Shown: positions 16,082 through 56,566 of the stretch, piece after piece
Numbering within the stretch: the first letter of the stretch is position 1
How the letters are laid out: every line of letters starts with the position of its first letter
Assembly (NCBI RefSeq): GCF_018398335.1
Contig: NZ_JAHBRX010000003.1
Location: 1-64,000 of the forward strand
Direction: 5' to 3'
Length of the DNA: 64,000 nucleotides
Source of the DNA: Chelatococcus sp. HY11
GTDB taxonomy: Bacteria; Pseudomonadota; Alphaproteobacteria; Rhizobiales; Beijerinckiaceae
Position numbers and translations under genes: made by a program
The notes under the pieces: generated by a model
Databases searched by the model: none
The model's input: only the letters and a program-made list of their open reading frames with translations
What the model was told of the DNA's origin: nothing

Positions 16082-16097
16082 CCTATCCAGGGATAGG
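16082..16097. promoter_or_regulatory. Candidate operator palindrome, site 1
   Basis: The sequence CCTATCCAGGGATAGG is a perfect 6-4-6 palindrome (CCTATC-CAGG-GATAGG). It lies in the 199-bp gap between the divergent SDR (start 15994) and thiolase (start 16194) genes and so could control both. The same pattern recurs at nine other promoters in this window. Confidence 0.75.
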
Positions 16098-16193
16098 CTG
16101 CTGCCGGGCGGCTGCCTGTCTTTGGGTAGGTGTGGCGATCAGGTACGAAGGGCACGAGAAAACATGATGCGATTGCGCCTGAAAGGATTTCCC

Positions 16194-17369
16194 ATGAAGA
16201 CAGCTTATATCGTCGACGCGGTCAGGACGGCGGGCGGCAGGCGCGGCGGCGGACTGAAGGAATGGCATCCCGCCGATCTGGGCGCGCTCGTGGTGAACGC
16301 GCTTATCGATCGCAATTCGGTCGATCCGACACGGGTCGAGGACGTCATTTTCGGCTGCGTCAGTCAGGCTGGCGAGCAGTCGACGAACGTCGCCCGCAAT
16401 ATTGCTCTCTCATCGAAGCTTCCTGATACGGTCCCCGGCGTCACGCTCGACCGACAGTGCGGCTCGTCCCAGCAGGCGGTGCATTTCGCGGCCCAGGCCG
16501 TCATGTCCGGCTCAATGGATATCGTGATTGCCGGTGGTATCGAGAGCATGTCCCGCGTTCCAATGGGTATGCCTCTCAGTTTGCCGCAAAAGAACGGCCT
16601 TGGTCATTACAAGGGCCGCCGACTTGAGGAACGCTTCCCCGGTATAGACTTCAACCAGTTCCACGGTGCCGAGATGGTTGCGCGGAAGTACGGGCTCGAG
16701 AAGGATGAACTGGACCGATTCGGTCTTCTCAGCCAACAGCGCGCCGCTGCCGCTACCAAAGAGGGCGCTTTCAGGGACGAGATCGTTCCCGTCCCGTTCA
16801 TGGGACCGAACGGTCCCCAGGATCACGTGGTAGACGAAGGCATCAGGTTCGGTGCAAGCCTCGAAGCGATGGCAGGTGTCAAGCTGATCCAGGAGGGCGG
16901 GCGCCTGACACCCGCGACGGCGAGCCAGTTCTGCGACGGGTCGGCCGGACTGCTCATCGCAAACGAAGATGGGCTGAAGGCTCTCGGCGCCAAGCCCATC
17001 GCTCGCGTTCACCACATGAGCGTGATCGGCGGCGATCCCGTCATCATGCTGGAAACGCCGATCGCCGCCACGCAGCGCGCCCTCGCCAAGACCGGCATGT
17101 CGATCGACGAGATTGGACTTTACGAGGTGAATGAGGCCTTTGCCTCGATACCGCTGGCTTGGGCGAAGGCGCTCGGCGCCAATCGGGAACGCATGAACGT
17201 TCATGGCGGGGCAATTGCTCTCGGCCATCCTCTCGGCGCCTCTGGCGCCAAGATTATGGCGACGCTGGTCCACGCCATGCGCCGGCACGGCGTCCGTTAT
17301 GGACTTCAAACCATGTGCGAGGGCGGCGGCCTCGCCAATGTCACGGTTATCGAACGGCTCGGCGGTTAG
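16194..17369 (+). CDS. Acetyl-CoA acetyltransferase (thiolase)
   Basis: 391 aa from the ATG at 16194, preceded by AAAGGA at 6 bp; the frame upstream of it is not part of the protein. Thiolase catalytic parts are all present: the acylated cysteine in TLDRQCGSSQQAVHFAAQ (about Cys89), GGAIALGHPLGASGAKI with the histidine near residue 345, and the second cysteine in MCEGGGLANVTVIE. It cleaves 3-ketoacyl-CoA with CoA at the end of a beta-oxidation round. It is the first gene of a plus-strand operon with an SDR and an acyl-CoA ligase. A second thiolase is at 37295. Confidence 0.95.
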   Translation: MKTAYIVDAVRTAGGRRGGGLKEWHPADLGALVVNALIDRNSVDPTRVEDVIFGCVSQAGEQSTNVARNIALSSKLPDTVPGVTLDRQCGSSQQAVHFAAQAVMSGSMDIVIAGGIESMSRVPMGMPLSLPQKNGLGHYKGRRLEERFPGIDFNQFHGAEMVARKYGLEKDELDRFGLLSQQRAAAATKEGAFRDEIVPVPFMGPNGPQDHVVDEGIRFGASLEAMAGVKLIQEGGRLTPATASQFCDGSAGLLIANEDGLKALGAKPIARVHHMSVIGGDPVIMLETPIAATQRALAKTGMSIDEIGLYEVNEAFASIPLAWAKALGANRERMNVHGGAIALGHPLGASGAKIMATLVHAMRRHGVRYGLQTMCEGGGLANVTVIERLGG

Positions 17370-17465
17370 TGAGGCCGAGAAAAACATTGCCCGACCGCGC
17401 GGGCAAGCATGATGCGCGCGGAATATCAAGGCACCCAGTCTTAGCACAAAGGAAGGAGCGCGATT

Positions 17466-19972: not shown

Positions 19973-21211
19973 TTAGATCTTCAGCTGGACGCCCGGTGTG
20001 GGCGGATCAATGATTTCACCGGCCGGGATCTCGAAATAGGTCTTCAGGTTTGCGCCATCCGGACCCGGAACACTGCCGAGGATGCTGACCGGCCCAACCT
20101 GCTGGTGATCCTCCTTGCGGAAATAGATCTCACCCTTCGGCGTAAGAACCTTGACATTTTCGAGCGCGTTAACGACGTCCGCCGTCTTTGTGCTATTGGC
20201 GGCTTTGATCGCCGCTGCGTAGCTAAAGACCGCCCCGTATGCCGGACCGGTAAGGCTTGAGGGTGTCTTGTCGCCCGTGCGCTTCAAAATCTCGGCCACG
20301 AGATCCTGGTTCGCCTTGTTCGGGTTCGTGTTGCCGAAATACCAATGGAGCACCGACCAAACGTTCTTCGGCATGTCCCTCCCGAGAATGATCGGCAGAT
20401 CGAGCTCTCCGCCCGCATCGACCACCACTTCGAGCTTGTCGCTCAGACCGAGAGTCTTGGCCTGTTTCCACATCGTGATCATGTCCGCGCCGATCATGAC
20501 GCTAAGAACGCCCTGGGCCGGAGATTGCAACAGGCGGAAAATCTGCGTCTTGTAGTCCGTGGTTCCGAACTTCGCGGTCGTGACGTCAAGAATGGTGACA
20601 TCCTTCTTGGCGTATTGTGGATAAAATTCCTTCAATCCGGCGGTGAACTGTTTCCAGGAATCATGGCCCACGGAGAAGTCCGAGATCATGCCGCCCCAAA
20701 CGGTGACATTCGGGAAGTTCTGGGCCATCGCGCGGGCAAGAGCACGATTGCGAGTGAAGTTATTGTCCGCCAGTCGGAAAAAATTCCGATTAAACAGCTC
20801 ATGTGTCAGAGGATCAAACGGCGAACTTGGCGTCATCATTACCGCATCGAGTGACTGGATAACGCCGGTCAAGGCGATAGAAAGCGCTGTCAGTGATGGG
20901 CCAATAATGAGATTAACGCCGGAACCGGTCATTTCGCGCGCGCGGGCGATGGTCTGATTCGGATCGCCCTTATCGTCGCCGAAGACGATTTCGATTTGGC
21001 GGCCGAGCACGCCACCGGCCGCATTAATCTGGTCGCGCGCTATCTCGATCCCGATCCGTTGCTTCGTTCCCACCAGCTCAGCCGTGCCGCTGAGCGGAAG
21101 GATCGCACCGATCCGGATTCGGTCGGCGGCGAACACGCGCCGACTGCCGAGTGTCGAAAGGCCTGTTGTCGCTGCTGCACCTAGCACTAAATGTCTGCGA
21201 TTGATCTGCAT
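19973..21211 (-). CDS. ABC transporter solute-binding protein, branched-chain amino acid type
   Basis: 412 aa from the ATG at 21211 (MQINRRHLVLGAAATTGLS), with GGGAG 5 bp upstream. The open frame runs back to 21334 but crosses an operator palindrome. The twin-arginine-like signal ends near RRVFAADR, so the protein should be exported. The mature part starts IRIGAILPLSGTAELVGTKQ, typical of Peripla_BP_6/LivK-like receptors for amino acids and aromatic or alicyclic acids. It is likely the receptor for the LivHM/LivG/LivF transporter at 29952-33338, which lacks its own. It has a promoter region distinct from the EthD gene upstream. Confidence 0.93.
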   Translation of the reverse strand: MQINRRHLVLGAAATTGLSTLGSRRVFAADRIRIGAILPLSGTAELVGTKQRIGIEIARDQINAAGGVLGRQIEIVFGDDKGDPNQTIARAREMTGSGVNLIIGPSLTALSIALTGVIQSLDAVMMTPSSPFDPLTHELFNRNFFRLADNNFTRNRALARAMAQNFPNVTVWGGMISDFSVGHDSWKQFTAGLKEFYPQYAKKDVTILDVTTAKFGTTDYKTQIFRLLQSPAQGVLSVMIGADMITMWKQAKTLGLSDKLEVVVDAGGELDLPIILGRDMPKNVWSVLHWYFGNTNPNKANQDLVAEILKRTGDKTPSSLTGPAYGAVFSYAAAIKAANSTKTADVVNALENVKVLTPKGEIYFRKEDHQQVGPVSILGSVPGPDGANLKTYFEIPAGEIIDPPTPGVQLKI

Positions 21212-21293
21212 GATCGCTCCCAATGTTTCCCCAAAATGCACCGGCTCTTCGGCCAGCCTTTCGTGATGCTCCGCATGAAACCTCGCGCGGGCT

Positions 21294-21309
21294 CCTATCC
21301 TTTGATAGG
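21294..21309. promoter_or_regulatory. Candidate operator palindrome, site 2
   Basis: CCTATCCTTTGATAGG is a perfect CCTATC-N4-GATAGG palindrome. It sits 82 bp upstream of the solute-binding protein start (21211) and 21 bp after the stop of the EthD gene, in the only gap of this operon. This supports a start at 21211 and separate control of the receptor gene. Confidence 0.75.
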
Positions 21310-21330
21310 TCTCCCGCCGATACGAAGTAT

Positions 21331-21675: not shown

Positions 21676-21686
21676 TTGATCTCCCC

Positions 21687-22589: not shown

Positions 22590-22611
22590 GCCGCTACTCC
22601 AGGGAACGCCG

Positions 22612-22643
22612 AAAAAAACGATGCGCCACGTTGTGGCGCATCG
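22612..22643 (-). terminator. Rho-independent terminator on the minus strand
   Basis: An 11-bp perfect stem (CGATGCGCCAC/GTGGCGCATCG, 3-base loop) is followed on the minus strand by seven T. It lies 13 bp after the VOC gene and before the hydrolase gene, so it should end or attenuate the operon that starts at 25177. Confidence 0.85.
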
Positions 22644-22655
22644 CGTGTTAAAGCC

Positions 22656-24013: not shown

Positions 24014-25177
24014 TCAGAATGACCGAGGCAAGCCGAGGTTTTCGGCAAGCGTATTGCGAACCATCTCGTTGGAAATGGGCGTCATGCGCAGAATACGGTG
24101 ATCCCGCCAATAGCGTTGCATGTCCGTTTCCGCGGAATACCCCATCCCGCCGAGGATCTGGATGCCGAGGTCGGCAGCCTCAACGGCACGCTCCGTCGCC
24201 ATCATCTTCAGCATGTTCGCTTCATTGCCGCACGGCTTGTTCTGCGCCTGCAGCGAGGCCGTATAATAGAGCAGGAGCTCCACCTCCTTCTGCCAGCATG
24301 CGATGTTGGCGATATAGTGCTGGATCGCCTGGAAGGAACCGATAGGTCGCCCGAACGCATGCCGCTGTTTGGCATAGTCAAGCGCATCTTCAAGGATACC
24401 GTCGATTGCTCCAAGGCACTGCGCACCAACCATTGTGCGCTCGTTGTTGAGGGTTGGAAGCAGAGTATACCAAGCCTTGCCGGGCTCGCCGAGCACAAGT
24501 TCATCCGGCACGAAGACATTGTCAAAATGAACAATGCAAGATCCGATTGAACGCATCCCGAGCTTCGTTACGGGCGTGATCGTAATGCCTTTCTGCTTCG
24601 CAGGGACGAAGAACACGGAAAGCCCATGGTGGCGCTTCTCGACGTTACTGTCTGTGCGAACAAGAGTTAGCAAGTAGTCAGCCACCTGCGACGCTGACGA
24701 CCACATTTTTTCACCGGTAAGAACCCAGCCACCTTCGACCCGCTTGCCGTTCGTGCGGAGCGCGCCGAGAACGTCGGTGCCTCCGCCTGGCTCTGTGAAT
24801 GCGATCGAGACGCGAAGCTTCCCTGCGGCGATATCAGGCAGAAACCGCTTCTTCTGCTCATCGCTACCATAAACGCCGATTGACTTGCCGCCTGCGAACG
24901 ACGTGAGGCCCCAGACCCACAACATGCCGCCAAGCGTTCGTGCCAGTTCACGGGCGAAGATCATCTGCATGACGATGTCGCCGCCCTGGCCGCCATATTC
25001 TTCAGGGATGCCGATGCCGTGGAACTCAGCTTCCGTGAACTTGTCCCAGAGAGCAAATGGATACTCGTGCTCGTTCTTTTCAAGCTCGCGCGCCCACGAT
25101 TTCGAAGCCTCCTTATCGACCCACCGCCGCACGGATTCGCGGAAGGCAAGTTGTTCGTCGGTCAGATCGAAATCCAT
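24014..25177 (-). CDS. Acyl-CoA dehydrogenase
   Basis: 387 aa. It starts DFDLTDEQLAFRESVRRWVD, with the FAD/substrate region AFTEPGGGTDVLGALRTNGK, YAKQRHAFGRPIGSFQAIQH and C-terminal IQILGGMGYSAETDMQRYWR. It is a gap-free paralogue of the protein at 12445. It is the first gene of the operon 25177 to 22656 (dehydrogenase, MaoC pair, VOC), a dehydrogenation-hydration module, and would use EtfAB from 10622-12336. A perfect operator palindrome lies 63 bp upstream. GAGAAGGG precedes the ATG. Confidence 0.95.
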   Translation of the reverse strand: MDFDLTDEQLAFRESVRRWVDKEASKSWARELEKNEHEYPFALWDKFTEAEFHGIGIPEEYGGQGGDIVMQMIFARELARTLGGMLWVWGLTSFAGGKSIGVYGSDEQKKRFLPDIAAGKLRVSIAFTEPGGGTDVLGALRTNGKRVEGGWVLTGEKMWSSASQVADYLLTLVRTDSNVEKRHHGLSVFFVPAKQKGITITPVTKLGMRSIGSCIVHFDNVFVPDELVLGEPGKAWYTLLPTLNNERTMVGAQCLGAIDGILEDALDYAKQRHAFGRPIGSFQAIQHYIANIACWQKEVELLLYYTASLQAQNKPCGNEANMLKMMATERAVEAADLGIQILGGMGYSAETDMQRYWRDHRILRMTPISNEMVRNTLAENLGLPRSF

Positions 25178-25240: not shown

Positions 25241-25256
25241 CCTATCCGTAGATAGG
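25241..25256. promoter_or_regulatory. Candidate operator palindrome, site 3
   Basis: CCTATCCGTAGATAGG is a perfect CCTATC-N4-GATAGG palindrome, 63 bp upstream of the dehydrogenase start at 25177. A lone left arm CCTATC follows at 25271-25276. It lies between the dehydrogenase operon and the 3' end of the carboxylase beta remnant. Confidence 0.75.
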
Positions 25257-27162: not shown

Positions 27163-27178
27163 TATATCTTTCGATAGG
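27163..27178. promoter_or_regulatory. Candidate operator, site 4 (one perfect arm)
   Basis: TATATCTTTCGATAGG keeps the right arm GATAGG and four of six bases of the left arm. It is exactly midway (58 bp from each start) between the divergent carboxylase beta (27104) and alpha (27237) remnants. Confidence 0.55.
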
Positions 27179-29809: not shown

Positions 29810-29825
29810 CCTATCCGTGGATAGG
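29810..29825. promoter_or_regulatory. Candidate operator palindrome, site 5
   Basis: CCTATCCGTGGATAGG is a perfect CCTATC-N4-GATAGG palindrome. It lies 126 bp upstream of the LivHM start (29952), after the 5' end of the broken enoyl-CoA hydratase gene. Confidence 0.75.
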
Positions 29826-29951: not shown

Positions 29952-31874
29952 ATGCTGGATCAGATCCTTTTCGCCGTTGCCAATGGCCTAGCTTCCGGCA
30001 TGGCAGTATTTCTCGTCGCGGCCGGTGTAACCCTCATTTTCGGTCTGTTGCGCATCCTCAATTTTGCCCAGGGCAGCTTCTTCATGGTTGGCGCCTATGT
30101 GGCGTTCAGCATCACGGGAACGTCGCCAGGATCGCTCTGGAGCTTTCTGTTTGCCTCCGTCGTGGCGGGCGCGACGGTGGCCGCTCTCGGTCTGCTGACG
30201 GAAAAGGCGATCTTTCGCAGGCTCCGCAAGTATGATGAGGCCTATACATTGATCGCCACATTTGCGCTTATGATGGCGCTCGACGGCGCTGTGAAGCTAA
30301 TCTGGGGCCTGAATTACCATTCAACCAGCTCGCCGCCCGCGCTGGCAGGCGTTTTCATCTTCGGCCCGGTCATCCTCCCTCTGTACTCAGTGTTCCTCAT
30401 CGGGTTGGGTCTCGCCGTCTTTGTCCTTCTCGAGTTCGGGATCCACCGCCTGTGGATCGGAAAAATCGTCCAGTCGCTCGCGAGCGACCAATGGATGTCC
30501 GGATACGTCGGCATCAACGTGCCGGCGATGCTCACGCTCACCGTTGTCGCCGCTTTCTTTCTCGCCGGACTCGCGGGAGGACTACTGCTACCCAACCAGA
30601 GCCTGTCTCCCGCGCTCTCCCACGCCTTCCTGTTGCTGGCCTTCATTGCCGTCATCATCGGTGGGCTCGGAAACATCCGCGGCGCGTTCATGGCCTCACT
30701 CGTTCTCGGGCTGGTCGACAGCCTCAACGCGGTACTGCTGCCCGATCAGCCCGGCATCGCCATGTATGTCGCGATGGTCGGCTGCATGCTTTGGCGTCCC
30801 GCCGGGATCCTCTCTGCCGGAACGGGCGATCAAACCGTCCACAACCATGCTAGCGGTGGAACTCCGATCGACTGGAGCCGCTATCGTCCTTCCTTGATCG
30901 CTGCTGGCATCGTCCTTGCTATTGCCGTTGCGGCCATGCCGCTCTGGGCAAATCCCGGCCTCGTATTCCTTGCCGGTATTGCTCTGGTCGCCGCGCTATT
31001 CGCGTTATCCTGGAATTTCCTGTTCGGAACGACGGGCCTGGCGACCTTCGGGCACGCAGCCTTCTTCGCCATCGGCGCGTACTCATCTGCACTGATGCTG
31101 AAAGCGACCGGGGGACAATGGTTCCTGCTTATTCTTCTCGCGAGTGCCGCAATTGGCTGTGTCGTCGCTGCTGCCGCGGGCAGTATCGCAATCCGTAGGA
31201 CCACCGGCATCGCTCTGGCGATCCTGACCTTGGCGCTCAGCGAGATCATGAGGCTTCTTATCAGCTCATCGTCGCAACTCGGCCGCGACGATGGCGTCTC
31301 TGGCATCCCGCGGCCTCAGTTCGACCTCGGCTTCGTGACAATCAGTTTGCAATCGACCAGCCAGTATTTTTGGTTCTTGTTTGTCGTCTGCGGCCTGACG
31401 GCTCTGGTGCTGTGGTGGATCACGGCAGGACGCTTCGGCCGCGTGCTTCGCGCGATCAAGCAGGATCCGGAGCGGACGACCTTCCTCGGCATCAACATCG
31501 CCCGGGCGCGCCTCCTGTCCTTCATGCTCTCCGGTACCGTTGCCACATTCGCGGGCGCTCTGCAGACGCCGTGGGTGCAGATCGTCACCCCTGAAGCAGC
31601 GAACTATTTGGTCTCGATGCAGCCTATGCTCAGCACACTTCTGGGCGGAGCATCGTTCTTCTGGGGGCCTGTTATCGGTACGATCCTCTTTTTTATCATT
31701 GATCAGGCTACACGCTCGCTTGCAGGTCTCTCTGAGGTCGTGACGGGATCGGTGTTGCTCATCTTCGTGATGCTCGCGCCTGATGGGATGCTCGGATTGA
31801 TCGGCCACCTCAGAAAACAAAAATCAACGCCATCCGCCGCGCGCGGCGGCGCGACCGAGGTGATGCCGTCATGA
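29952..31874 (+). CDS. Branched-chain amino acid-type ABC permease, LivH-LivM fusion
   Basis: 640 aa, with GAAGGAGG 5 bp before the ATG. Residues 1 to about 285 are a LivH-type permease (GVTLIFGLLRILNFAQGSFF near the start, FIAVIIGGLGNIRGAFMASL near the end). After a linker, residues about 315-620 are a LivM-type permease (LVAALFALSWNFLFGTTGLA, TFGHAAFFAIGAYSSALMLK, LSTLLGGASFFWGPVIGTIL). Normally two genes encode these halves; here they are one protein with about 16 to 18 membrane segments. It forms the inner-membrane channel for the LivG and LivF ATPases that follow. Confidence 0.95.
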   Translation: MLDQILFAVANGLASGMAVFLVAAGVTLIFGLLRILNFAQGSFFMVGAYVAFSITGTSPGSLWSFLFASVVAGATVAALGLLTEKAIFRRLRKYDEAYTLIATFALMMALDGAVKLIWGLNYHSTSSPPALAGVFIFGPVILPLYSVFLIGLGLAVFVLLEFGIHRLWIGKIVQSLASDQWMSGYVGINVPAMLTLTVVAAFFLAGLAGGLLLPNQSLSPALSHAFLLLAFIAVIIGGLGNIRGAFMASLVLGLVDSLNAVLLPDQPGIAMYVAMVGCMLWRPAGILSAGTGDQTVHNHASGGTPIDWSRYRPSLIAAGIVLAIAVAAMPLWANPGLVFLAGIALVAALFALSWNFLFGTTGLATFGHAAFFAIGAYSSALMLKATGGQWFLLILLASAAIGCVVAAAAGSIAIRRTTGIALAILTLALSEIMRLLISSSSQLGRDDGVSGIPRPQFDLGFVTISLQSTSQYFWFLFVVCGLTALVLWWITAGRFGRVLRAIKQDPERTTFLGINIARARLLSFMLSGTVATFAGALQTPWVQIVTPEAANYLVSMQPMLSTLLGGASFFWGPVIGTILFFIIDQATRSLAGLSEVVTGSVLLIFVMLAPDGMLGLIGHLRKQKSTPSAARGGATEVMPS

Positions 31875-32641
31875 CGCCCGTTCTTAAAGCAGAAGGTCTT
31901 TTCAAGAGCTACGGAGCGATCCCGGTACTGCGCGATGTCAGCCTTGAGGTCGCGCCGACCGAAACGATCGCTATCATTGGGCCGAACGGCGCTGGGAAAA
32001 CGACCTTGTTCAAGACGCTGACTGGCGAGGTCTTCCCGGAACAGGGCCGTATTGCAGCATTCGGCGAGGACGTGACCCGTATGCCCGCTGCAGCGCGCGT
32101 CGCCCTCGGCTTTGGTCGGACATTCCAGGTGGCCCGCGTCTATCCCGAAACGACTCTCCTAGGTAATCTCGTCCTGGCGGTCGAGACCCGCAAGCGCATC
32201 GCAGACGAAAGGATCAGCGCTCCCTTCGCCTTCCGAGCCTCAGCAGACACACTTGCGGATGCCGAAAACTGGCTCGATGCCGTCGGGCTTGCAAAGCTTA
32301 AATCGATGGAAGCGCGTTTCCTTTCGCATGGCGATAAGAAACGTCTCGAGATGGCGCTCACATTGGCCCTGAAACCAAAACTCATGATGATGGACGAACC
32401 CACGGCCGGGATGTCACCCTCTGACCGCGGCGAAACTGTCAGTCTGATCCGGAATATCCGTGAGCGGTTCGGCGTCACCCTGTTGTTGACGGAGCACGAC
32501 ATGGACGTCGTGTTTGGCCTCTCGAGCCAAATCATGGTTCTCAACTACGGAGAGGTTATCGCCATGGGGACCGGCGAGGAGATTCGCAACAATCCGGCAG
32601 TCCGTGACGTCTATCTCGGTCATCAGGTGCAGCATGCTTGA
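31871..32641 (+). CDS. livG: ABC transporter ATP-binding protein LivG
   Basis: 256 aa; the start overlaps the permease stop by 4 bp (ATGA). The Walker A motif is IIGPNGAGKTTLFK and Walker B is LMMMDEPTAGMSP. The signature region reads FLSHGDKKRLEMALTLALKP, a weak form of LSGGQ that is common in LivG. The D-loop and H-switch follow in LLTEHDMDVVFGLS. It energises uptake with LivF. The likely receptor is at 19973, some 10 kb away on the other strand. Confidence 0.95.
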   Translation: MTPVLKAEGLFKSYGAIPVLRDVSLEVAPTETIAIIGPNGAGKTTLFKTLTGEVFPEQGRIAAFGEDVTRMPAAARVALGFGRTFQVARVYPETTLLGNLVLAVETRKRIADERISAPFAFRASADTLADAENWLDAVGLAKLKSMEARFLSHGDKKRLEMALTLALKPKLMMMDEPTAGMSPSDRGETVSLIRNIRERFGVTLLLTEHDMDVVFGLSSQIMVLNYGEVIAMGTGEEIRNNPAVRDVYLGHQVQHA

Positions 32642-33338
32642 GGTCACACAGCTTGAGGCCTTCTACGGTGACAGTCAGGTCCTCCACGGTATCAGCCTTA
32701 CGGTGAGGCCAGGTCAGCGCGTCGCCGTGATCGGCCGGAATGGGGCAGGCAAGTCCACCCTCCTGAAAAGCATCATGGGCGGAGGAACGATAGTCTCGGG
32801 CCATTTACGATGGGACGGCGCGGATCTCCGACCGTTGGCAGGCTATCAGCGAACACGCCTCGGCTTATCCTTCGTTCCAGAGGACCGGCGGATCTTCCCA
32901 CATCTCACCGTCGTCGAAAATCTTGAGATAGCGCGCTACGCCACTGCGAAGGGGAAGACGCCGGCGACACCGGATGAGATGATCAGCTTCTTCCCCATGC
33001 TCGATCCGCTTCGGGCACGTCTTGGCAACCAATTGAGCGGCGGCCAGCAACAGCTTCTCGCCGTCGCACGGGGGCTCCTCCCGATGCCCCGACTGCTCCT
33101 GCTCGACGAGCCAACCGAGGGACTAGCACCAGTCATCGTCGAGCAAATGGCGCAGTCGATCAATGCCATATGCCTCAAGCAGAATGCTGCCATGCTCCTC
33201 AGCGAACAGAACCTCTGGTTTGCCCGTCAATGTACGGACACGCTACACGTTCTCGATACCGGTCGCGTCGTCTTCAGCGGGACTTGGGAAGAGTTCGACG
33301 CGCGGCCCGATATACGCAATCGGCACCTGGCCGTTTGA
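32634..33338 (+). CDS. livF: ABC transporter ATP-binding protein LivF
   Basis: 234 aa from the ATG at 32634, which overlaps the livG stop by 8 bp; the longer open frame from 32514 lies inside livG and is not used. The start MLEVTQLEAFYGDSQVLHGI is typical of LivF. Motifs are VIGRNGAGKSTLLK (Walker A), NQLSGGQQQLLAVARGLL (signature) and LLLLDEPTEGLAPVIV (Walker B). It is the second ATPase of the importer and the last intact gene of this operon. Confidence 0.95.
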   Translation: MLEVTQLEAFYGDSQVLHGISLTVRPGQRVAVIGRNGAGKSTLLKSIMGGGTIVSGHLRWDGADLRPLAGYQRTRLGLSFVPEDRRIFPHLTVVENLEIARYATAKGKTPATPDEMISFFPMLDPLRARLGNQLSGGQQQLLAVARGLLPMPRLLLLDEPTEGLAPVIVEQMAQSINAICLKQNAAMLLSEQNLWFARQCTDTLHVLDTGRVVFSGTWEEFDARPDIRNRHLAV

Positions 33339-34190: not shown

Positions 34191-34220
34191 GGCCTCACCT
34201 GTCGAAAGACAGGTGAGGCC
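34191..34220. promoter_or_regulatory. 30-bp perfect palindrome with operator-like core, site 6
   Basis: Two 13-bp arms, GGCCTCACCTGTC and its exact complement, surround GAAA. The central 16 bp (34198-34213) read CCTGTCGAAAGACAGG, the CCTATC-N4-GATAGG pattern with a matched change in each arm. It lies midway between the divergent SnoaL (34146) and metallo-beta-lactamase (34262) starts. It could also form a hairpin, but it has no T run. Confidence 0.6.
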
Positions 34221-35295: not shown

Positions 35296-35385
35296 GATGG
35301 GCAGCTTTTCTATCCAAAGAAAGGCGCTTCGTGGTGCCGCTCTAATACCTAGGGTGAAGAAACAGTTGGGATCCTGAACAGCCTC

Positions 35386-37211: not shown

Positions 37212-37227
37212 CCTTTCTTTCGGTAGG
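37212..37227. promoter_or_regulatory. Candidate operator, site 7 (two mismatches)
   Basis: CCTTTCTTTCGGTAGG matches ten of the twelve arm positions of CCTATC-N4-GATAGG. It is 67 bp upstream of the thiolase start at 37295, in the 283-bp gap that separates the hydrolase/EthD genes from the thiolase-FadB operon. Confidence 0.5.
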
Positions 37228-37294
37228 TTTCTGCGCGGGCTTGGTGGTTGAGATGGCACAGGAACTCTGATTTTTGAACCATGGGATGCTCAGG

Positions 37295-38503
37295 ATGGTT
37301 GAGGCATTTATCTACGATCATGTGCGGACGCCGCGCGGTCGCGGTCGTCCGGACGGCGCCCTGCATGAGGTGACCGCGGTCCAGCTCGCGACACAGGTCC
37401 TAAAGGCTCTCTCTGATCGCTCATCCTTGGACACGTGCTTTATTGATGACGTGGTGATGGGCTGCGCTCAGCCTGTCGGCGAACAAGGCGGCAACATCGC
37501 CCGTGCGGCCGTACTGACCGCGGGCTATGATCAAGGTGTGGCGGCTCAACAGGTGCACCGATTCTGCGCATCGGCGCTCGAAGCTGTGAACAATGCCGCT
37601 GCCCAAGTGATGGTAGGCGCGTCGGATGCCGCCATCGGCGCTGGCGTGGAATCCTTGTCCCGGACCTTCATGGGTGCAGATAGCGGAGCTTGGGCTGCTG
37701 ACCCGGCAGTCGCCTACAACACCTACTTTGCACCGCAGGGCATCGGGGCAGATCTCATCGCAACGCTCGACGGCTTCTCTCGGGAGGACGTCGATTCCTA
37801 CGCGGTAGAGAGCCAGAAGCGCGCGGCAGCGGCCTGGCGAGAGGGACGTTTTAAGAATGCCATCGTGCCAGTACGTGACGTCCTGGGCGACGTTCTCCTT
37901 GATCATGATGAGCACATGCGGCCGGGAACCACTCTCGAACAACTGGGGGCGCTGAAACCTTCCTTCACTTTCCTGGGGGAGCAGGCGGGATTCGACCTGG
38001 TCGGCATACAAAAGTATCCACAGATCGAGACCGTCAGCCACGTTCATACCGGTGGTAATTCGTCTGGAATCGTGGACGGCGCTGCCGGCGTTCTCGTCGG
38101 CAATGTGGGTTTTGGTAAGAAAACTGGCCTGAAGCCGCGCGCCCGTATCCGCGCGTTTACGTCGATTGGAAGCGAGCCGACCATCATGCTCACCGCTCCT
38201 GCGGACGTGACGAACAAATGCCTGGCGCGGGCGAGTATGACGAAGGATGACATCGATTTGTTCGAGGTCAACGAGGCTTTCGCCTCTGTGGTCCTGCGGT
38301 TCATGAAGCTGCTCGAAATTGACCATGCGAAAGTCAACGTCAACGGCGGCGCCATCGCGATGGGTCACCCGCTTGGTGCGACGGGAGCAATGCTCGTTGG
38401 CACCGTACTCGATGAGCTCGAGCGGCGGAGCCTCGGGACTGCCTTGATCACGCTCTGCGCCGGCAATGGCCTCGGCACAGCGACGATCATCGAGCGCATC
38501 TGA
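37295..38503 (+). CDS. Acetyl-CoA acyltransferase (thiolase)
   Basis: 402 aa from the ATG at 37295 (MVEAFIYDHVRTPRGRGRPD); ATG at 37286 is an alternative. The acylated cysteine is in QVHRFCASALEAVNNAA, the catalytic histidine in GGAIAMGHPLGATGAML, and the second cysteine in ITLCAGNGLGTATIIERI. It is the FadA-like partner of the FadB-like protein encoded 27 bp downstream, the usual order for the alpha-beta trifunctional pair reversed. A long frame on the other strand is a shadow. Confidence 0.95.
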   Translation: MVEAFIYDHVRTPRGRGRPDGALHEVTAVQLATQVLKALSDRSSLDTCFIDDVVMGCAQPVGEQGGNIARAAVLTAGYDQGVAAQQVHRFCASALEAVNNAAAQVMVGASDAAIGAGVESLSRTFMGADSGAWAADPAVAYNTYFAPQGIGADLIATLDGFSREDVDSYAVESQKRAAAAWREGRFKNAIVPVRDVLGDVLLDHDEHMRPGTTLEQLGALKPSFTFLGEQAGFDLVGIQKYPQIETVSHVHTGGNSSGIVDGAAGVLVGNVGFGKKTGLKPRARIRAFTSIGSEPTIMLTAPADVTNKCLARASMTKDDIDLFEVNEAFASVVLRFMKLLEIDHAKVNVNGGAIAMGHPLGATGAMLVGTVLDELERRSLGTALITLCAGNGLGTATIIERI

Positions 38504-38530
38504 TTTTCGAATTTGACTGGAACATTTCCA

Positions 38531-40660
38531 ATGAAGCACATCAATCTGACGGTCGACAATGACGGAGTGGCGCTTCTGACGCTCGACCACGCGACCGAGT
38601 CAACCAATCTCGTTTCGCCCGAGTGGGTTGCCGAAATGAATGAGGCGATCGAGAAGATCGCATCGGACGACAGAGTAAGAGGCGCCGTCATCACATCAGT
38701 CAAACCGATGTTCATGGCGGGCGCCGATCTCAAGATCCTCACCAAGGGATTCACAAAGGCCGAGGCGCTCGAGTTCAGCCTAATGCCGACACAGATGCAT
38801 CGCCGGCTGGAAACTTGCGGAAAACCTTTCGTCGCGGCGATCAACGGTCTCGCACTTGGCGGAGGATACGAACTCGCGCTCGCCTGCCACCGTCGGATTA
38901 TCGTCGACAGTCCAGAGACGCTCGTCGGCCTGCCGGAGGTCAATGTCGGGCTCCTCCCTGGCTCTGGGGGAACGCAGCGTCTGATCCGGATGGTGGGCGT
39001 GAAGAAAGGTCTCGAGCTCTTGCTGTCGGGAGCGTCGCTTGCACCGGCTGAAGCGCTTAAGGCCGGTCTTGTGGATGAAATTGTACCCGCTGACAGGCTT
39101 CTTGACGCCGCGAGTGCGTGGATCCTCTCCGGACCCGATTCAGTCCGTGCCTGGGACAAGAAGGGGTATCCCGTTCCCGAAGGCAGCGGCCTCCTCAACG
39201 CGCAGATGGCATCGCTGTTCTCTATGCAGCCCGCCGCAGTCGCCGCGAAGACCTTGCACAACTATCCCGCTCCGGCAGCGATCCTGTCGACGGTATTCGA
39301 AGGCATCCAGCTGCCTTTCGACAAGGCGCTCTCGGTCGAAAGCAAATATTTTGCGAAGCTTCTTTGCGAGGTCGAAGCTCGCAATATCATACGCACGACG
39401 TTCATTAACAAAGGTCGCGCTGAGAAGCTCGTGGCGCGTCCTGAGGGTGTTCCGAAGGCAAAGGTTGAGAAAGTGGGCGTTCTGGGCGCAGGGATGATGG
39501 GTGCCGGTATCGCCTTCGTCAGCGCTCTTGCGGGCTGTGAGGCCGTGCTCATCGACAGATCACAGGCCGAGGCCGACAAGGGGAAGGCCTATTCCGAAAA
39601 GCTTCTCGCGCGTGACGTCGAACGGGGCCGCCGGAGCCGCGAGGACGCCGACAAGATTCTGGCTCGTATCTTGCCGACAACCGACTTTGACAAGCTTGCC
39701 GGGGTCGGTTTGGTAATCGAGGCCGTTTTTGAAGACAAAGCTATCAAGGCAGACGTGACGCGTCGCGCGCAGGCGGTAACCGGACCCGATGTCCTCTTTG
39801 CGAGCAACACGTCGACCTTGCCGATCACAAATCTCGCAGAGGCGGCCGTTCGGCAGGAAAATTTCATTGGGCTGCACTTCTTCTCACCTGTCGACCGCAT
39901 GGCTCTCGTCGAAGTCATCCTGGGCAAGAAAACGAGCAAAGTAGCTCTCGCCCATGCGCTGGACTTCGTAGCGCAACTCCGCAAGACGCCAATCGTCGTC
40001 CACGACAGCCGCGGTTTCTATACGAGCCGCGTATTTCAAACCTTCATTTACGAGGGCATGGCCATGATCGGCGAAGGAATTGCGCCAGCTCTGATCGAAA
40101 ATGCCGGGAAATTTGCCGGAATGCCCGTTGGCCCGCTCGCCGTGACGGATGAAGTGTCACTGGAACTTCCGATGAAGATCATCGCACAGGCCGAAACTGA
40201 ACTGGGCCACGCTTTCCGCCGACCGCAGGGCTATGACGTGATGAAAAAAATGGTCGAGGAATTCAAGCGCGAGGGTCGAAAGGCCGGCGCCGGGTTCTAC
40301 GACTATCCTGACGGAGCGCCCAAACGTCTCTGGTCGAAACTCGTCGAACATTTCCCTCAGAAGACCAGCCAGCCTGATCTCGCTGAACTGAAGAAACGCA
40401 TTCTCTATATTCAGGCGATTGAGACCGCGCGCTGCCTCGAGGAAGGCGTTCTCACCGATCCCGCAGACGGGGATCTAGGTTCGGTTCTCGGATGGAGTTA
40501 CCCGACCTACACGGGAGGGACGCTCTCACTAATTGATAGCGTGGGCATCCGCGACTTCGTCGCCGAGTGCGACCGCCTCGCGGAGCTATATGGCGACCGG
40601 TTCAGGCCTTCCGAATGGCTGCGCCAGCGGGCCGAGAAAAATATCCCGTTCCACAGCTGA
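38531..40660 (+). CDS. FadB-like enoyl-CoA hydratase/3-hydroxyacyl-CoA dehydrogenase
   Basis: 709 aa from the ATG at 38531 (MKHINLTVDNDGVALLTLDH). The N-terminal crotonase domain (1 to about 190) has AINGLALGGGYELALACHRR and GLPEVNVGLLPGSGGTQRLI with the catalytic glutamates. The NAD-binding domain starts with VGVLGAGMMGAGIAF at about 315, followed by GLHFFSPVDRMALVEVILGK and VVHDSRGFYTSRVFQ with a C-terminal 3HCDH domain. It hydrates enoyl-CoA and oxidises 3-hydroxyacyl-CoA, feeding the thiolase encoded upstream. It lies 15 bp before the dehydrogenase gene. No damage is visible. Confidence 0.95.
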   Translation: MKHINLTVDNDGVALLTLDHATESTNLVSPEWVAEMNEAIEKIASDDRVRGAVITSVKPMFMAGADLKILTKGFTKAEALEFSLMPTQMHRRLETCGKPFVAAINGLALGGGYELALACHRRIIVDSPETLVGLPEVNVGLLPGSGGTQRLIRMVGVKKGLELLLSGASLAPAEALKAGLVDEIVPADRLLDAASAWILSGPDSVRAWDKKGYPVPEGSGLLNAQMASLFSMQPAAVAAKTLHNYPAPAAILSTVFEGIQLPFDKALSVESKYFAKLLCEVEARNIIRTTFINKGRAEKLVARPEGVPKAKVEKVGVLGAGMMGAGIAFVSALAGCEAVLIDRSQAEADKGKAYSEKLLARDVERGRRSREDADKILARILPTTDFDKLAGVGLVIEAVFEDKAIKADVTRRAQAVTGPDVLFASNTSTLPITNLAEAAVRQENFIGLHFFSPVDRMALVEVILGKKTSKVALAHALDFVAQLRKTPIVVHDSRGFYTSRVFQTFIYEGMAMIGEGIAPALIENAGKFAGMPVGPLAVTDEVSLELPMKIIAQAETELGHAFRRPQGYDVMKKMVEEFKREGRKAGAGFYDYPDGAPKRLWSKLVEHFPQKTSQPDLAELKKRILYIQAIETARCLEEGVLTDPADGDLGSVLGWSYPTYTGGTLSLIDSVGIRDFVAECDRLAELYGDRFRPSEWLRQRAEKNIPFHS

Positions 40661-49147: not shown

Positions 49148-51858
49148 CTATGCAATAAGGCCGAATTGCCGCGCTCTTTCAACAGCCTGCGAACGACGGC
49201 GAATGCCAACCTTGTCGTACACCTGCTGCATGTACCACTTGACCGATCCCTCAGACAGCCCGAGACGGTTGCCGATTTCGCGGTTACGCATCCCGCAACC
49301 AACGAGAGTCAGGATTTCCAACTCCTTGCCACTGAGCCGGCCGTAGAGCCCCTCATAGTTTGATTCGACGATCTCGGGGGTCGACACCGGTTTTCCGGTG
49401 AAGGCTGCCAGCACACGGCGCGCGAAAAGGTCCGTGGGATGCTGCGAGTCCATGCTGTCTGTGTAGGCATCGGACAGGAGCTTGAAGACAGGCTGCCCTT
49501 CGTCGACGAAACTGCGAATAAGATCCGCCGGCGCAGCCGCGGTGACACCTTCACGCATCGCTCGTTGTGCGGTGCGATGATCCCCACTGATCGAGAGGGT
49601 CTGCGCGGCAAGAATGCTCCACCGCACGAAGGCGCGCACGGCTCCGCGGCTCTGGCAGAATGTCCGCCATTGCTTTGTCAGAGCCAAAGCTTCGGCCGCC
49701 TGACCGCGGTTGATCGCATAGCGGGCCCAGATCAGCGCTGCCAACTCGTTGAGTGTGGTCGCCCCCTGGTTCGGCGCGAGAGCGCCGGACGATTTCGGCA
49801 GGTTCGATTCAGCCATCCGCACAGCCGCGGCATCCGTCATGCCATTTCGCAGCAGGAGGCGAATCTGCTCGTGCAGAACGGCAAGCCGCATGCGCTCGAG
49901 ATCGCATTCCAGCGCGACATTCATGGCCTGGTCTAGTGCTCGGCGCGCGCCATCTTGATCGCCACGAGCGCCATGGAGACGCGACTTCACGATATGCCCA
50001 GCGACCAACTGATCGACGAAGCACAGCTCACGTGCAACCGGCAGATGGCTGTCAACGAGCTCTGCCGACTGCTCGAGTTCATTGGCTTCATAATGGATTT
50101 CAGCCAGCGGGAGCGCGATCAGCGCAGCGAGCGGCGAGTTCTTGCCCGCCCAGTGATGGCTTTCGTCCAGCCCTTGGGCCAACGCCTCACGGGCTTGTTC
50201 GGTTCGCCCGGCAGCGAACAACGAGATGCCCGCTGCGGCTTGGAACGCCAATACGGAAAAACGATAGCCCGACTGCTCAGCACTGGCGCGCGCTTGCGCA
50301 TGCAGGCGGTCCAGTCCTTCGAAGCGGAAATGTTCTCGGCGAGCCGACATTTGATAAGCATAGAGCGAGCAGACGACGAACGGGCGCCGCGGCGCGAAAT
50401 AGCGCAGGAGTGTCGCACAACGCTCCTCCACCTGGGCAAGATTGTCGTGTGCGGCAGCGAAGGTCATCTCACGGTGCTGAAGCGTCATGTCGAGCGCTTC
50501 AAGAGCATCGGGATCGGTCTCGGGATCGCGGCGCATTTCCGCCAGTCGTTCGGTTGCAAGATCAAGGAGATGGCGGGTCTGTCTGAAACGCATGCCATAG
50601 ATCTTATGCCACGCGACCGCGACCGCCGTGTTGGGGCTGCGCGCGAGAATGGCCAGGGGCAATTCCGCGGCGTACTTGGAGATCGTTCCGACGCGACCCG
50701 AATAGGTGAAGTCTTCGGCAACCCCTTCAAGATACTCCGAAAGGAGGGTGAAATCACGCGATTTCAGCGCGTGCTCGAGGGCCTGCTCATGGTGACCGCG
50801 CGAATGGAACCAAACCGCGGCCTTCCGGTGTGCGACGAATACGGCCTGTGAATCGAGGTCAGCCAGTTTTCGCTGGAGGAACTCGGAAAATAGATTGTGG
50901 TAGCGGAACCACTGGCCTTCATCGTCTAGTTGAGCAATAAAAAGGCCAATTTCCTCCAGGTGGCGCAGCGTGGCGCTTGAACCGCGCCGGCCAGTCAAGG
51001 TATCGCATAGTTCCGGGGAAAGCCGGTCAAGTACGGCGGTTTCGAGAAGGAACGACCTGATCTCTTCACTTTGTCGGGCAAAGACGTCTTCCGCAAAGAA
51101 CGCAGCAACGGCGCGGCCTCGACCAGAGAAATGAGCAAAAAAATCACTTCGGTCCGTCGATCGGTTCAGGGCGAAACACGCGAGCTTGAGACCCGTGACC
51201 CAACCCTCGGTCTTGGAAAGCAGCATGTCGAGGTGTGCGACCTCGAACTCATGATGGCCGGCGCCTGCGAGCAGCGCGATCGCCTCTTGGCGCGTAAAAC
51301 GCAATTCCTGATGACCAAGCTCGAGAAGTTGACCATAGGCGCGCATGCTCCCCAGCTCGATAGTATGCAATTGTCGCGTCGCGAGAACGCAATGCGTGTT
51401 GAGCGGCACACGTTGGATGAGCAGGGCGAGTAGATCAGCAGTTCTCTGATCCAGAAGATGGACATCGTCGAGAAAGAGGTAGACGGGCTGACGCGTCCGG
51501 GCCAGTCGTTCGATGACTGCCGCAATCAGCGCTTCCGCATTGAAATAGGCCTCGTTGAGAAATACGTTCTCCAGACCTTCGCCGATCGGGCCGACGGCAT
51601 GGAGCATTGCAGCGAGCGAGCGAGCGGTCGCGGTGAGCTATCATTGGTATCAAGTGAGATCCAACCGCATAGGGCGCCGCGCGCCTTCAACTCGTCGAAC
51701 CATTGCGCCAGTAGTGTCGTCTTGCCGTAGCCGGCAGCCGCCTTGATGATGGTGAGGCGGTGCCGCGCGAGATCGCCGAGATAATCCCTGAGGCGGGGCC
51801 GGTCGAGCAAGCCCACCGGTTCGAGCGGCGGGACAAATTTAGTCACGATGGCTTGCAT
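49148..51858 (-). CDS. MalT/LuxR-type ATP-dependent regulator, frame broken at an AGCG repeat
   Basis: The start is the ATG at 51858 (MQAIVTKFVPPLEPVGLLDR), then Walker A IIKAAAGYGKTTLLAQWFDE and WISLDTNDSS. At 51611-51626 an (AGCG)4 repeat lies where the frame is lost; the rest continues in another phase from 51607 (AVGPIGEGLENVFLNEAYFN, then YLFLDDVHLLDQRTADLLAL as Walker B). About 600 residues of TPR-like helices follow, and a C-terminal LuxR helix-turn-helix (SGKELEILTLVGCGMRNREI and GLSEGSVKWYMQQVYDKVGI). With five repeat units the protein would be 904 aa, the normal MalT-family size. It diverges from the gene at 52024, which it may control. A plain pseudogene or sequencing error is the alternative. 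Confidence 0.85.
51611..51626. repeat. Tetranucleotide repeat (AGCG)4 in the MalT-type gene
   Basis: Four perfect AGCG units on the plus strand (GCTC on the coding strand). They sit exactly where the two halves of the regulator are out of phase. Gaining one unit (or losing two) puts the halves in one frame, and the joint then reads RSLAAMLHAVG. Such repeats are prone to slippage. Confidence 0.8.
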
Positions 51859-51945: not shown

Positions 51946-51961
51946 GCAATCAATGGATAGG
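51946..51961. promoter_or_regulatory. Candidate operator, site 8 (one perfect arm)
   Basis: GCAATCAATGGATAGG has the right arm GATAGG intact and four of six bases of the left arm. It lies 62 bp upstream of the dehydrogenase start at 52024. Confidence 0.5.
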
Positions 51962-53880: not shown

Positions 53881-53896
53881 ACTATCGATCGATAGG
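53881..53896. promoter_or_regulatory. Candidate operator, site 9 (one mismatch)
   Basis: ACTATCGATCGATAGG matches eleven of the twelve arm positions of CCTATC-N4-GATAGG, and the centre GATC extends the dyad. It is 74 bp upstream of the SDR start at 53971. Confidence 0.65.
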
Positions 53897-54778: not shown

Positions 54779-55867
54779 ATGTCTGCTAGCGGCATTCTCT
54801 CTGGAGTCAAAATTGTCGAGTTCGACGGCTTGGGGCCCATTCCGCTCTGCGCGATGATGTTGGCCGATCACGGCGCGGAGATCGTTCGCATCGTGCGCCC
54901 AGGGAGCCCGGTGACCGATAATGAGGTCGGAGGCGCCATCCTTCACCGCAATCGTGCCAGCGTTGAGCTCGATTTGAAATCACCTTCGGATCGCGCTCGG
55001 GCTCTCGATCTCGTCGCGCGCGCTGACGCAGCTCTTGAGGGTTTCCGCCCCGGCGTCATGGAACGGCTCGGCCTCGGTCCCGAAGCGTGCCACGCCCGTA
55101 ATCCATGCCTTGTTTATGGGCGCATGACAGGCTGGGGGCAAACCGGCCCCCTCGCGAATCGTGCCGGACATGACATCAATTACCTTGCCATGTCGGGCGC
55201 CTTGGCTTTGATGGGCTCCCCCGACCGTCCGCCTTCACCACCGCTCAATCTCGTTGCCGACTATGCTGGCGGCACCCTGTTTCTCGCATTTGGCGTCATC
55301 GCCGGACTGCTCGATGTGGCTCGCGGTGGCAAAGGTCATGTCGTCGACGCTGCGATGTGCGACGCTGTCCCGGTTCTCCTCAGTCTGATGCATGCCCTGC
55401 GCGCAACGGGCCAATGGAAGGACAGGCGTGGCGCCAACCTGCTCGACGGCGGACGTCCCTTCTATCGGTGTTACAAATGTAAGGATGGAGGCTTCATCGC
55501 CGTCGGTGCGCTCGAGCCACAATTCTTTCGCCTCTTTATGCATGGGATCGGACTCGATCCAGGCGCTTTTCCACAGGACGACGAAGCCTGTTGGCCCGTT
55601 ATGACGGATGCGATTGCCGCACGTTTCCGCGAAAAGACGCGCGATGAGTGGGGGTTGCTGTTCAGTGACGGTGATGCCTGCGTCTCGCCGGTGCTTGGGG
55701 TGGACGAAGCAGCCCAAACTCTGCATGCGCAGGCTCGAGGTATTTTCCGTCGCGACGGAGACCGGATCGAGGCAACACGGGCGCCCCGCTTCGGGAATGA
55801 AACGACGGTCTTCGAGCCACCATCCCGTTTAGGGATCGACGACGCATTGGCGCGCTGGTCGCAATGA
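54779..55867 (+). CDS. CaiB/BaiF CoA-transferase family III, alpha-methylacyl-CoA racemase-like
   Basis: 362 aa from the ATG at 54779 (MSASGILSGVKIVEFDGLGP). It has LCAMMLADHGAEIVRIVRPG, FRPGVMERLGLGPEACHARN, YGRMTGWGQTGPLANRAGHD followed by INYLAMSGAL, then LNLVADYAGGTLFLAFGVIA and GANLLDGGRPFYRCYKCKDG. The GHDINY and NLVADYAGG segments carry the His and Asp used by alpha-methylacyl-CoA racemases, and the GALEPQFF segment also fits that branch. It would invert the 2-methyl centre of a branched acyl-CoA so that an S-specific dehydrogenase can act. It overlaps the TetR gene start by 4 bp. Confidence 0.9.
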   Translation: MSASGILSGVKIVEFDGLGPIPLCAMMLADHGAEIVRIVRPGSPVTDNEVGGAILHRNRASVELDLKSPSDRARALDLVARADAALEGFRPGVMERLGLGPEACHARNPCLVYGRMTGWGQTGPLANRAGHDINYLAMSGALALMGSPDRPPSPPLNLVADYAGGTLFLAFGVIAGLLDVARGGKGHVVDAAMCDAVPVLLSLMHALRATGQWKDRRGANLLDGGRPFYRCYKCKDGGFIAVGALEPQFFRLFMHGIGLDPGAFPQDDEACWPVMTDAIAARFREKTRDEWGLLFSDGDACVSPVLGVDEAAQTLHAQARGIFRRDGDRIEATRAPRFGNETTVFEPPSRLGIDDALARWSQ

Positions 55868-56547
55868 GAGTGGAGCAAGCCGGAATGCTAGGCGAGGCGC
55901 TGCGGTCAGGCGTCGCCGACAAAATGTCGGGCGAGGAGCGCAAGGCCGATCTCCTGGAAGCCGCCCTTAGGGTGTTCTCGGAGAAAGGCTACAATCGTGC
56001 CTCGTTGCAGGATATCGCCAACAGCGTTGGGATATTGAAAGGCAGCCTTTACTATTACTACAAATCAAAGGAAGCTTTGCTCTTCGATGTTTTGAAATTC
56101 GTGCACGACGAGCATCTGGCCAATGCCCAGAAGCTGGCTTCCGGAAGCGGCGATCCGCTCTCCCGGCTGCGCGCTTTGCTTGAAGGCCATGCCGCGTTCG
56201 TTTGCGACAACCTCGATCGCACAACAGTTTTCGTTCGGGAGATGGATCGGCTTCCGGCGCGCCTGCAGACTGAGATATTGGGAGCTGATCGCGCCTATCA
56301 AAGCGTATTCCGCAATCTGATCATTGCGGCACAGGGGACAGGCCAAGTGCCGGCTTCCGTACATCCGAAGCTCGCCACGCTCTGGATCCTTGGCTCGCTC
56401 AACTGGCTCCACCGCTGGTATCGGCCGGAACGCGCCGGGGGTTCCTCTCTGATCGCAGCACAGTTCGCCGACCAACTGACGCGGGCCATCGCGCCTTCGC
56501 CGCTTTGGAATGTTGTTGAGATAGACTCACGCAATCAGGATCGCTGA
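55864..56547 (+). CDS. TetR/AcrR family regulator, KstR2-like
   Basis: 227 aa; its ATG overlaps the preceding stop (ATGA). The N-terminal helix-turn-helix is RKADLLEAALRVFSEKGYNR then ASLQDIANSVGILKGSLYYY YKSKEAL. The C-terminal ligand domain ends WILGSLNWLHRWYRPERAGG, a segment typical of the KstR2-type TetR_C group that senses CoA thioesters. It is a candidate reader of the CCTATC-N4-GATAGG operators and sits between sites 9 and 10. It closes the operon 53971-56547. Ligand and operator assignments are inference. Confidence 0.9.
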   Translation: MRVEQAGMLGEALRSGVADKMSGEERKADLLEAALRVFSEKGYNRASLQDIANSVGILKGSLYYYYKSKEALLFDVLKFVHDEHLANAQKLASGSGDPLSRLRALLEGHAAFVCDNLDRTTVFVREMDRLPARLQTEILGADRAYQSVFRNLIIAAQGTGQVPASVHPKLATLWILGSLNWLHRWYRPERAGGSSLIAAQFADQLTRAIAPSPLWNVVEIDSRNQDR

Positions 56548-56550
56548 TGG

Positions 56551-56566
56551 ACTATCCGAAGACAGG
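56551..56566. promoter_or_regulatory. Candidate operator, site 10 (two mismatches)
   Basis: ACTATCCGAAGACAGG matches ten of the twelve arm positions. The right arm GACAGG is the same variant seen at site 6. It lies just after the TetR stop and 87 bp upstream of the dienoyl-CoA reductase start. Confidence 0.5.

Follow-up and report, generated by a model that had tools for sequence, protein, structure and literature searches.

A 16-bp inverted repeat in the acyl-CoA clusters of Chelatococcus sp. HY11 as the likely operator of large MalT-type LuxR regulators

Several described regulators of catabolic genes share features with the system considered here, which centers on a recurrent 16-bp inverted repeat, CCTATC-N4-GATAGG, in the DNA of Chelatococcus sp. 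HY11. The stretch analyzed, referred to below as the window, consists of positions 1 to 64,000 (64,000 nucleotides) of contig NZ_JAHBRX010000003.1. The available part of one source (PMC6099782) describes MalT and the Rhodococcus protein TpdR, in which, as in the proteins encoded here, an N-terminal MalT-related P-loop ATPase domain is combined with a C-terminal LuxR helix-turn-helix (HTH) and the genes have catabolic neighbors. The same part reports the MalT operator as two decanucleotides forming a direct repeat, proposes a 15-nt direct repeat for TpdR and gives the NarL site as two heptamers forming an inverted repeat (PMC6099782). NarL resembles the present case in its related HTH type and inverted-repeat site. 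It differs in lacking the MalT-like ATPase part and is, as its PDB name indicates, a response regulator. TeiR of Comamonas testosteroni is, in the accessible portion of its report (PMC6895838), a LuxR-type activator of testosterone catabolism, and the candidate here would likewise be a LuxR-type activator of a catabolic pathway. Palindromes at catabolic promoters have also been reported for TetR proteins, again in the portions of the sources at hand. BkaR (PMC3920632) has a palindrome with a 16-bp core and a 4-base center as here, but is a TetR protein with the core GTTA(N)T(N4)A(N)TAAC. KstR2 (PMC3068626), already noted in a preliminary description of this DNA as using a different sequence, is a TetR protein with the core AnCAAGnnCTTGnT, and EdcR (PMC8700777) has an alphaproteobacterial catabolic palindrome that is conserved in a relative, as here, but is a TetR repressor with TnnCnnTACnAnTnGTAnnGnnA. 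The BkaR core gave 3 matches against 4.1 expected and is not the repeated element here. Literature searches by motif and by LAL/half-site found no published description of CCTATC-N4-GATAGG. The arms of the lux box, ACCTGT...ACAGGT, are similar to (A)CCTATC...GATAGG(T). Judged by sequence comparison, CCTATC-N4-GATAGG is a regulon operator, and the regulon is most likely a catabolic one controlled by large MalT-type LuxR (LAL) regulators.

The window contains 4, 5, 13, and 25 copies of the motif with no, up to one, up to two, and up to three mismatches, respectively. In 300 first-order Markov shuffles the corresponding means were 0.003, 0.08, 1.4, and 17.0 and the maxima 1, 2, 6, and 31, and the excess up to two mismatches is decisive. 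At three mismatches it is weak, since 2 of 100 shuffles also reached 25 sites. The preliminary description, which had proposed such a comparison with shuffled sequence, listed ten sites found by eye. All ten coordinates proved correct, with four perfect sites and the right arm GATAGG intact in seven, as had been claimed; of the other six sites, one has a single mismatch and five have two (Table 1). The list was incomplete, since three two-mismatch sites (16115, 33365, and 35309) had been overlooked. The sites were also rightly said to be confined to the catabolic part, as none with up to two mismatches lies in the window outside 16082-56566. Picking by eye was corrected for by counting all 6-base inverted repeats with spacers of 0-12. 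CCTATC-N4 was the most frequent in the window (4 copies, next 2), in the three regions of the genome described below (13, next 4, with 5 as the best of any arm in 40 shuffled sets), and in the region of a relative, G470 (7, next 5 for the overlapping CTATCG-N2).

The window belongs to contig C3 (157,597 bases) of a genome of six contigs and 6.95 Mb. A genome-wide search, which had also been suggested, found 13 perfect sites, at C2:1418588-1450049 (5), C3:16082-90763 (7), and C5:66744 (1), all within three paralogous acyl-CoA clusters on three contigs; the reversed-pattern control had no perfect occurrence. With up to one mismatch the genome has 34 sites against 10 for the control, 20 of them in the three regions and 14 elsewhere (9 coding, 5 intergenic). 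The C2, C3, and C5 regions have orthologous acyl-CoA genes in common. The gene types, not all present in each region, are an ATP-binding cassette (ABC) transporter with binding protein, ligases, acyl-CoA dehydrogenases, thiolases, FadB-like proteins, and a reductase of the old yellow enzyme (OYE) type. Additional genes are tripartite-transporter genes and a P450-like gene in C3, and in C5 a TctC gene and a relative (68%) of this P450-like gene. Over C3 1-104000, 51 kb of C2, and 54 kb of C5, sites with up to two mismatches were intergenic in 32 cases and coding in 4, despite five times more coding sequence, and three-mismatch sites (11 intergenic, 32 coding) were nearer background. Gene calls came from a codon-score script, so that starts are approximate, and the coding placement of C3 90748, G470 973493, and the sites of three loci in other genomes (L048, L049, and L082) may reflect start errors.

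The relative G470, which we take to be Chelatococcus asaccharovorans DSM 6462 (NZ_QJJK01000001.1), has 7 perfect sites, all in one 48-kb stretch syntenic with C2. Promoters were compared between reciprocal-best orthologs, with operon-internal genes and pairs below 45% identity dropped. Between species, a site was present at both, one, or neither member of a pair in 15, 1, and 6 cases, and between paralogous clusters in 14, 5, and 10 cases (Fisher p 7e-4, on a symmetrised table of non-independent pairs). In the 14 concordant paralogous pairs the sites lie 26-191 bp upstream of predicted starts, and identity is 91% in the arms (where the selection imposed a minimum of 67%), 39% in the spacers, and 30% in the 40-bp flanks. 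Perfect counterparts of site 21294 are found at C2 1450034 and G470 990346. Orthologs of the gene downstream of 25241 carry sites in C2, C5, and G470, as does the promoter equivalent to that of 37212, and the 16-mer of 27163 recurs between carboxylase genes in C2 (1412311) and G470 (936189). The motif had at first been read as a regulon-wide operator, with conservation at syntenic promoters named as a check. That reading is supported by the confinement to clusters, the intergenic placement, the retention of sites at orthologous promoters, and the conservation of the arms alone between paralogous promoters.

All six multi-site clusters examined contain genes for proteins of about 900 amino acids, namely C2 (2), C3, C5, G470 (2), and those of two further genomes of the order, G235 and G098, which belong to other families. 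By sequence these are MalT-type LuxR (LAL) regulators. MalT (PDB 8bob) was the best PDB match of the five copies searched, with E-values of 1e-33 for C3 49148, 1e-44 for C2 1433749, 5e-34 for C5 54717, 3e-26 for G098 249486, and 2e-46 for G235 959709, and the C-termini of all five match LuxR/NarL-type PDB entries; C2 1422422 and the two G470 genes were assigned by alignment with the other copies only. The P-loop [AG]PAGxGK[ST] was aligned in 13 of the 14 sequences covering those columns, the exception being that of Terrarubrum, GEAGIGKT. Overall identity among the non-orthologous copies of C2, C3, and G470 is 55-61%, rising to 94-99% over the last 72 residues, as expected if all copies must read the same DNA. 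With front parts that differ and nearly identical DNA-binding ends, these regulators may funnel different inputs into one output. Over the same residues the C5 copy is 65-68% and the G098 copy 56-57% identical to those of C2, C3, and G470, and the helix of the G098 regulator, TEGSVKWHLQQVYDK, is common to the motif-linked type. The window copy has a frame break near 51610-51631, where relatives match 51858-51610 and then 51619/51631-49151 in another frame, so that its P-loop part lies in the other frame (the 51858-51610 piece). Because the C2 and C5 copies are unbroken, C3 may be controlled in trans.

The tie between motif and regulator was examined on plasmids, where the C2 1433749 protein matched 79 records, and six loci (L109-L114) were read. 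Five were chosen solely by the regulator protein (31-37% identity), and their regulators have the helix EG[ST]VKWYxQQIYxK. Together these five loci hold 6 perfect sites, 11 with up to one mismatch, and 25 with up to two, against 0, 0.17, and 4.6 in shuffles. All 11 are intergenic, judged by the listed genes, and at four of the five loci such a site lies 14-169 bp upstream of the regulator gene (Table 1). No site with up to one mismatch was present at Cupriavidus L114 (28.0%, helix APETVKWHLKNIFEK) or at Terrarubrum L066, a locus with a different helix originally taken for its transporter. As each of the six clusters has a MalT-type gene, and the helix of this protein accompanies the motif in other bacteria, a MalT-type protein, and not one of the TetRs, is most likely the binder. 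By annotation, L109 and L110 are acyl-CoA-type clusters in which a MalT-type regulator gene is accompanied by F420-biosynthesis (cof) and luciferase-like monooxygenase (LLM)-class genes.

Among 397 genomes of the order, a perfect site occurs in 46 and the reversed control in 17. After the 13 of HY11 itself the top counts were 3 in G235 and 2 each in G098, G113, G233, and G262. The G235 sites, three perfect and one near-perfect, fall within 29 kb, and one of them precedes a thiolase/fadB pair that is 65%/48% identical to the HY11 pair; the site at 962437 falls within an over-long predicted gene start. G098 has two perfect and two near-perfect sites within 7 kb. A Pfam scan of 17 neighbor genes out of 65 predicted there, the MalT-type gene not being among the 17, found no HTH domain, three genes without a match, and one cyclic-nucleotide (cNMP)-binding domain. 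The scan of 13 of 78 predicted genes in G235 found one TetR and one LexA. This TetR was rejected as an ortholog of those in HY11, its best match being the window protein TetR A' (E 7e-7, 31% over the HTH region).

In the mechanism proposed, ATP and a pathway compound would bind the MalT-type regulator and lead to multimerisation. Two HTH domains would then grip the two palindrome arms upstream of promoters and activate transcription, the regulator gene itself being among the targets. C3, its own copy being split, would depend on the C2 and C5 copies acting in trans. The inducer, the activation, and the multimer state are an inference by analogy with MalT and TpdR as covered in the available part of PMC6099782. 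A broader proposal, to which we give even chances, is that CCTATC-N4-GATAGG is the operator code of a family of catabolic activators of the MalT-type LuxR kind, as yet undescribed, whose members have the helix EG[ST]VKW[YH]xQQ[IV]YxK and occur across Alpha- and Betaproteobacteria and their plasmids. In this proposal the Chelatococcus paralogs with their near-identical DNA-binding ends wire the clusters of the three contigs together, and the same 16-mer was reached by convergence in an unrelated TetR clade. If so, the regulons of this MalT-type family would be readable from sequence. Such a link between motif and regulator family, made purely by comparison, would provide a sequence rule for finding MalT-type regulons on catabolic replicons, and co-control across the three contigs is predicted, including the ABC and tripartite transporters and the P450-like gene in C5.

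Several observations weigh against MalT-type control of the palindrome. Five paralogous promoter pairs are discordant. The reported or proposed operators of MalT and TpdR are direct repeats in the available part of PMC6099782, whereas the element here is a 16-bp inverted repeat, from a scan that covered inverted repeats. The last 72 residues of the G235 regulator, its HTH, are just 42-44% identical to those of the C2, C3, and G470 copies, and its helix, TVGTAKWHIHHIYQK, is more distant. No site lies directly upstream of the regulator genes C2 1422422 and G470 946444 or of the Agrobacterium regulator gene, and the plasmid sample covers 6 of 79 matching records with two different-helix controls. 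Finally, 14 single-site loci of other genomes were examined, 11 of the family and 3 of the order. At five of them, in four genera, the site lies within about 75 bp upstream of an LmrA/YxaF-like TetR gene with the helix KSASVH[YH][HF]FP, and no MalT-type gene was found in these five 3-kb loci, so that TetRs can be suspected of reading the palindrome as well. PF21993 was above cut-off in two of the four LmrA/YxaF-like TetRs scanned. At L042 and L051 the TetR matches are weak and lie farther from the site. Neighboring genes include those for a carboxymuconolactone decarboxylase (L048), a glutathione S-transferase (L081), and a DJ-1-type protein (L050).

The two KstR2-like TetR proteins of the window had been named as the natural binders. 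Repression by such TetR_C_24 proteins (A, B, C, and copies) through the palindrome is improbable. Five TetR proteins with TetR_N and TetR_C_24 (PF00440 and PF17932) are encoded in C2 and C3, and KstR2 structures are among the PDB matches of A and B. KstR2 itself carries PF17932. In C2, C3, and G470 a site heads both the short-chain dehydrogenase/reductase (SDR)-CoA transferase-TetR A operon and the OYE-(hydratase-like)-TetR C operon. Two Chelatococcus genomes (G408 and G441) that gave no match to TetR A at E<=1e-20, and in which more distant TetR relatives are present, also have no perfect site. However, this genus pattern would suit any cluster gene. C5 has four sites with up to one mismatch, yet no TetR of A-C type at E<=1e-20, and G235 has clustered sites and no TetR-profile match at E<=1e-15, whereas the MalT-type helix accompanies the motif in alpha- and betaproteobacteria. 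In G098 all three TetR-profile matches are on contigs other than that of the site cluster. Since their operons begin with a site, TetR A', C', and relatives look like regulon members, and the wider comparison lends no support to them as binders. Outside HY11 itself, searches of 397 genomes from the order, 385 from the class, and 398 from the phylum gave no relative of TetR A at the cut-offs used, in samples that excluded G470 and in each of which few candidates were scored; a search of genome contigs gave one close and nine distant loci, and plasmids gave no close match. The KstR2 operator AnCAAGnnCTTGnT has 29 matches in the window with up to two mismatches against 18.1 expected (1 of 100 shuffles reaches 29), of which 27 are coding and 14 lie within 16082-56566, so that it does not recur at promoters. 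One perfect palindrome of this type, intergenic at 29222-29235, might be bound by one of the TetRs.

Competition of a MalT-type activator and a TetR repressor for one palindrome is given an equally low chance. Genes of both types occur together in C2, C3, and G470, and LmrA/YxaF-like TetRs have the identical 16-mer just upstream at the 5 of 14 loci mentioned above. This clade, however, has no true member in HY11 or G470 (best E in HY11 4e-14 against 1e-87 to 1e-91 for members, which were included in the model), and it was rejected as the binder in Chelatococcus; in other genera it may put this operator to a second use. A different regulator, such as the LysR protein encoded beside the C2 cluster, is very unlikely: its gene adjoins the perfect site C2 1450034, but no C3 or C5 match appeared in the cluster comparison, and the even-centered motif does not suit the T-N11-A box of LysR proteins. 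An RNA hairpin, a dispersed repeat, or chance is strongly disfavored, for although the arms can pair, 21294 folds better than shuffles (z -3.2), 34198 is a strong hairpin, and a small excess persists at three mismatches, shuffled sequences fold as well as 29810 (z -0.86), no Rfam match was found, the flanks are 30% identical, the counts are far above shuffles, and no terminator was called at any site in 20000-38000.

Table 1. Motif sites and genes of the window, and loci in other genomes and plasmids (percentages are identities to the C2 1433749 protein)
Feature	Position or locus	Strand	Remarks
Site, perfect	16082..16097		Between divergent SDR(-) and thiolase(+) genes
Weaker site, 2 mismatches	16115..16130		33 bp from site 16082
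Site, perfect	21294..21309		Upstream of periplasmic binding protein gene
Site, perfect	25241..25256		Upstream of acyl-CoA dehydrogenase gene
Site, 2 mismatches	27163..27178		57 bp upstream of biotin-carboxylase gene remnants
Site, perfect	29810..29825		Upstream of permease fusion gene 29952-31874(+)
Asymmetric site, 2 mismatches	33365		Probably a chance match
Doubtful site, 2 mismatches	34198..34213		Inside 15-bp-stem hairpin between divergent genes
Possible weak site, 2 mismatches	35309..35324		82 bp upstream of hydrolase gene 35407-36279(+)
Site, 2 mismatches	37212..37227		Upstream of thiolase/FadB-like operon
Site, 2 mismatches	51946..51961		88 bp upstream of MalT-type gene (-), 62 bp upstream of zinc-alcohol dehydrogenase-like gene (+)
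Site, 1 mismatch	53881..53896		Upstream of SDR - CoA transferase - TetR A'
Site, 2 mismatches	56551..56566		Upstream of OYE-type reductase - TetR C'
Periplasmic binding protein gene	19973..21211	-	
Acyl-CoA dehydrogenase gene	24014..25177	-	
Branched-chain-type ABC transporter	29952..33338	+	Permease fusion and two ATPases
Thiolase and FadB-like genes	37286..40660	+	
MalT-type LuxR regulator gene	49148..51858	-	Split; candidate binder
TetR A'	55885..56547	+	PF00440, PF17932; putative regulon member
TetR C'	58605..59414	+	PF00440, PF17932; putative regulon member
Novosphingobium resinovorum pSA2	L109		36.6%; 5 sites (2 perfect, 3 one-mismatch), of which one is 91 bp upstream of regulator and another between ligase and thiolase genes
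Croceicoccus marinus	L110		34.6%; 1 perfect site, 14 bp upstream of regulator
Massilia putida			34.3%; 2 one-mismatch sites, one 169 bp upstream of regulator
Agrobacterium deltaense			34.1%; 1 perfect site, at divergent promoter about 6 kb from regulator
Caballeronia sp. SBC2			30.8%; 2 perfect sites, one 119 bp upstream of regulator
LmrA/YxaF-like TetR genes	L048, L049, L050, L081, L082		Perfect site just upstream

Within 20000-38000, promoter-like sites were at chance level (5 against 5.8), and the position of the motif relative to -35/-10 elements could therefore not be judged; terminator-like sites numbered 35 against 15.4 in shuffles. The hairpin at 34198 (-34 and -38 kcal/mol, z about -6) is a very stable structure at 34189-34222 with a perfect 15-bp stem and a GAAA loop. 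Next to it, a metallo-beta-lactamase-like gene (34262-35295) appears frameshifted, as two pieces (34262-34645 and 34648-35274) match a 355-aa C2 protein. At 25371-28177, carboxyltransferase and biotin-carboxylase gene remnants flank a DUF4096/DDE transposase gene (26227-27024). Transposase genes of equal length lie at C3 75392, C3 81975, and C5 67900, the last two being 100% identical. Outside the clusters, a one-mismatch site at C1:3195583 (L074 1501-1516), CCTATCAGAAGATAGC, is common to all four Chelatococcus genomes and precedes apparent ATP-synthase genes, read without a domain scan. Two 988-aa genes with the same coding score and opposite orientation, at window 59887-62853 (-) and C3 105689-108655 (+), are named as Tn3 transposase in the preliminary description only. 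Each adjoins a 207-aa gene, and the pair brackets the second half of the catabolic region.

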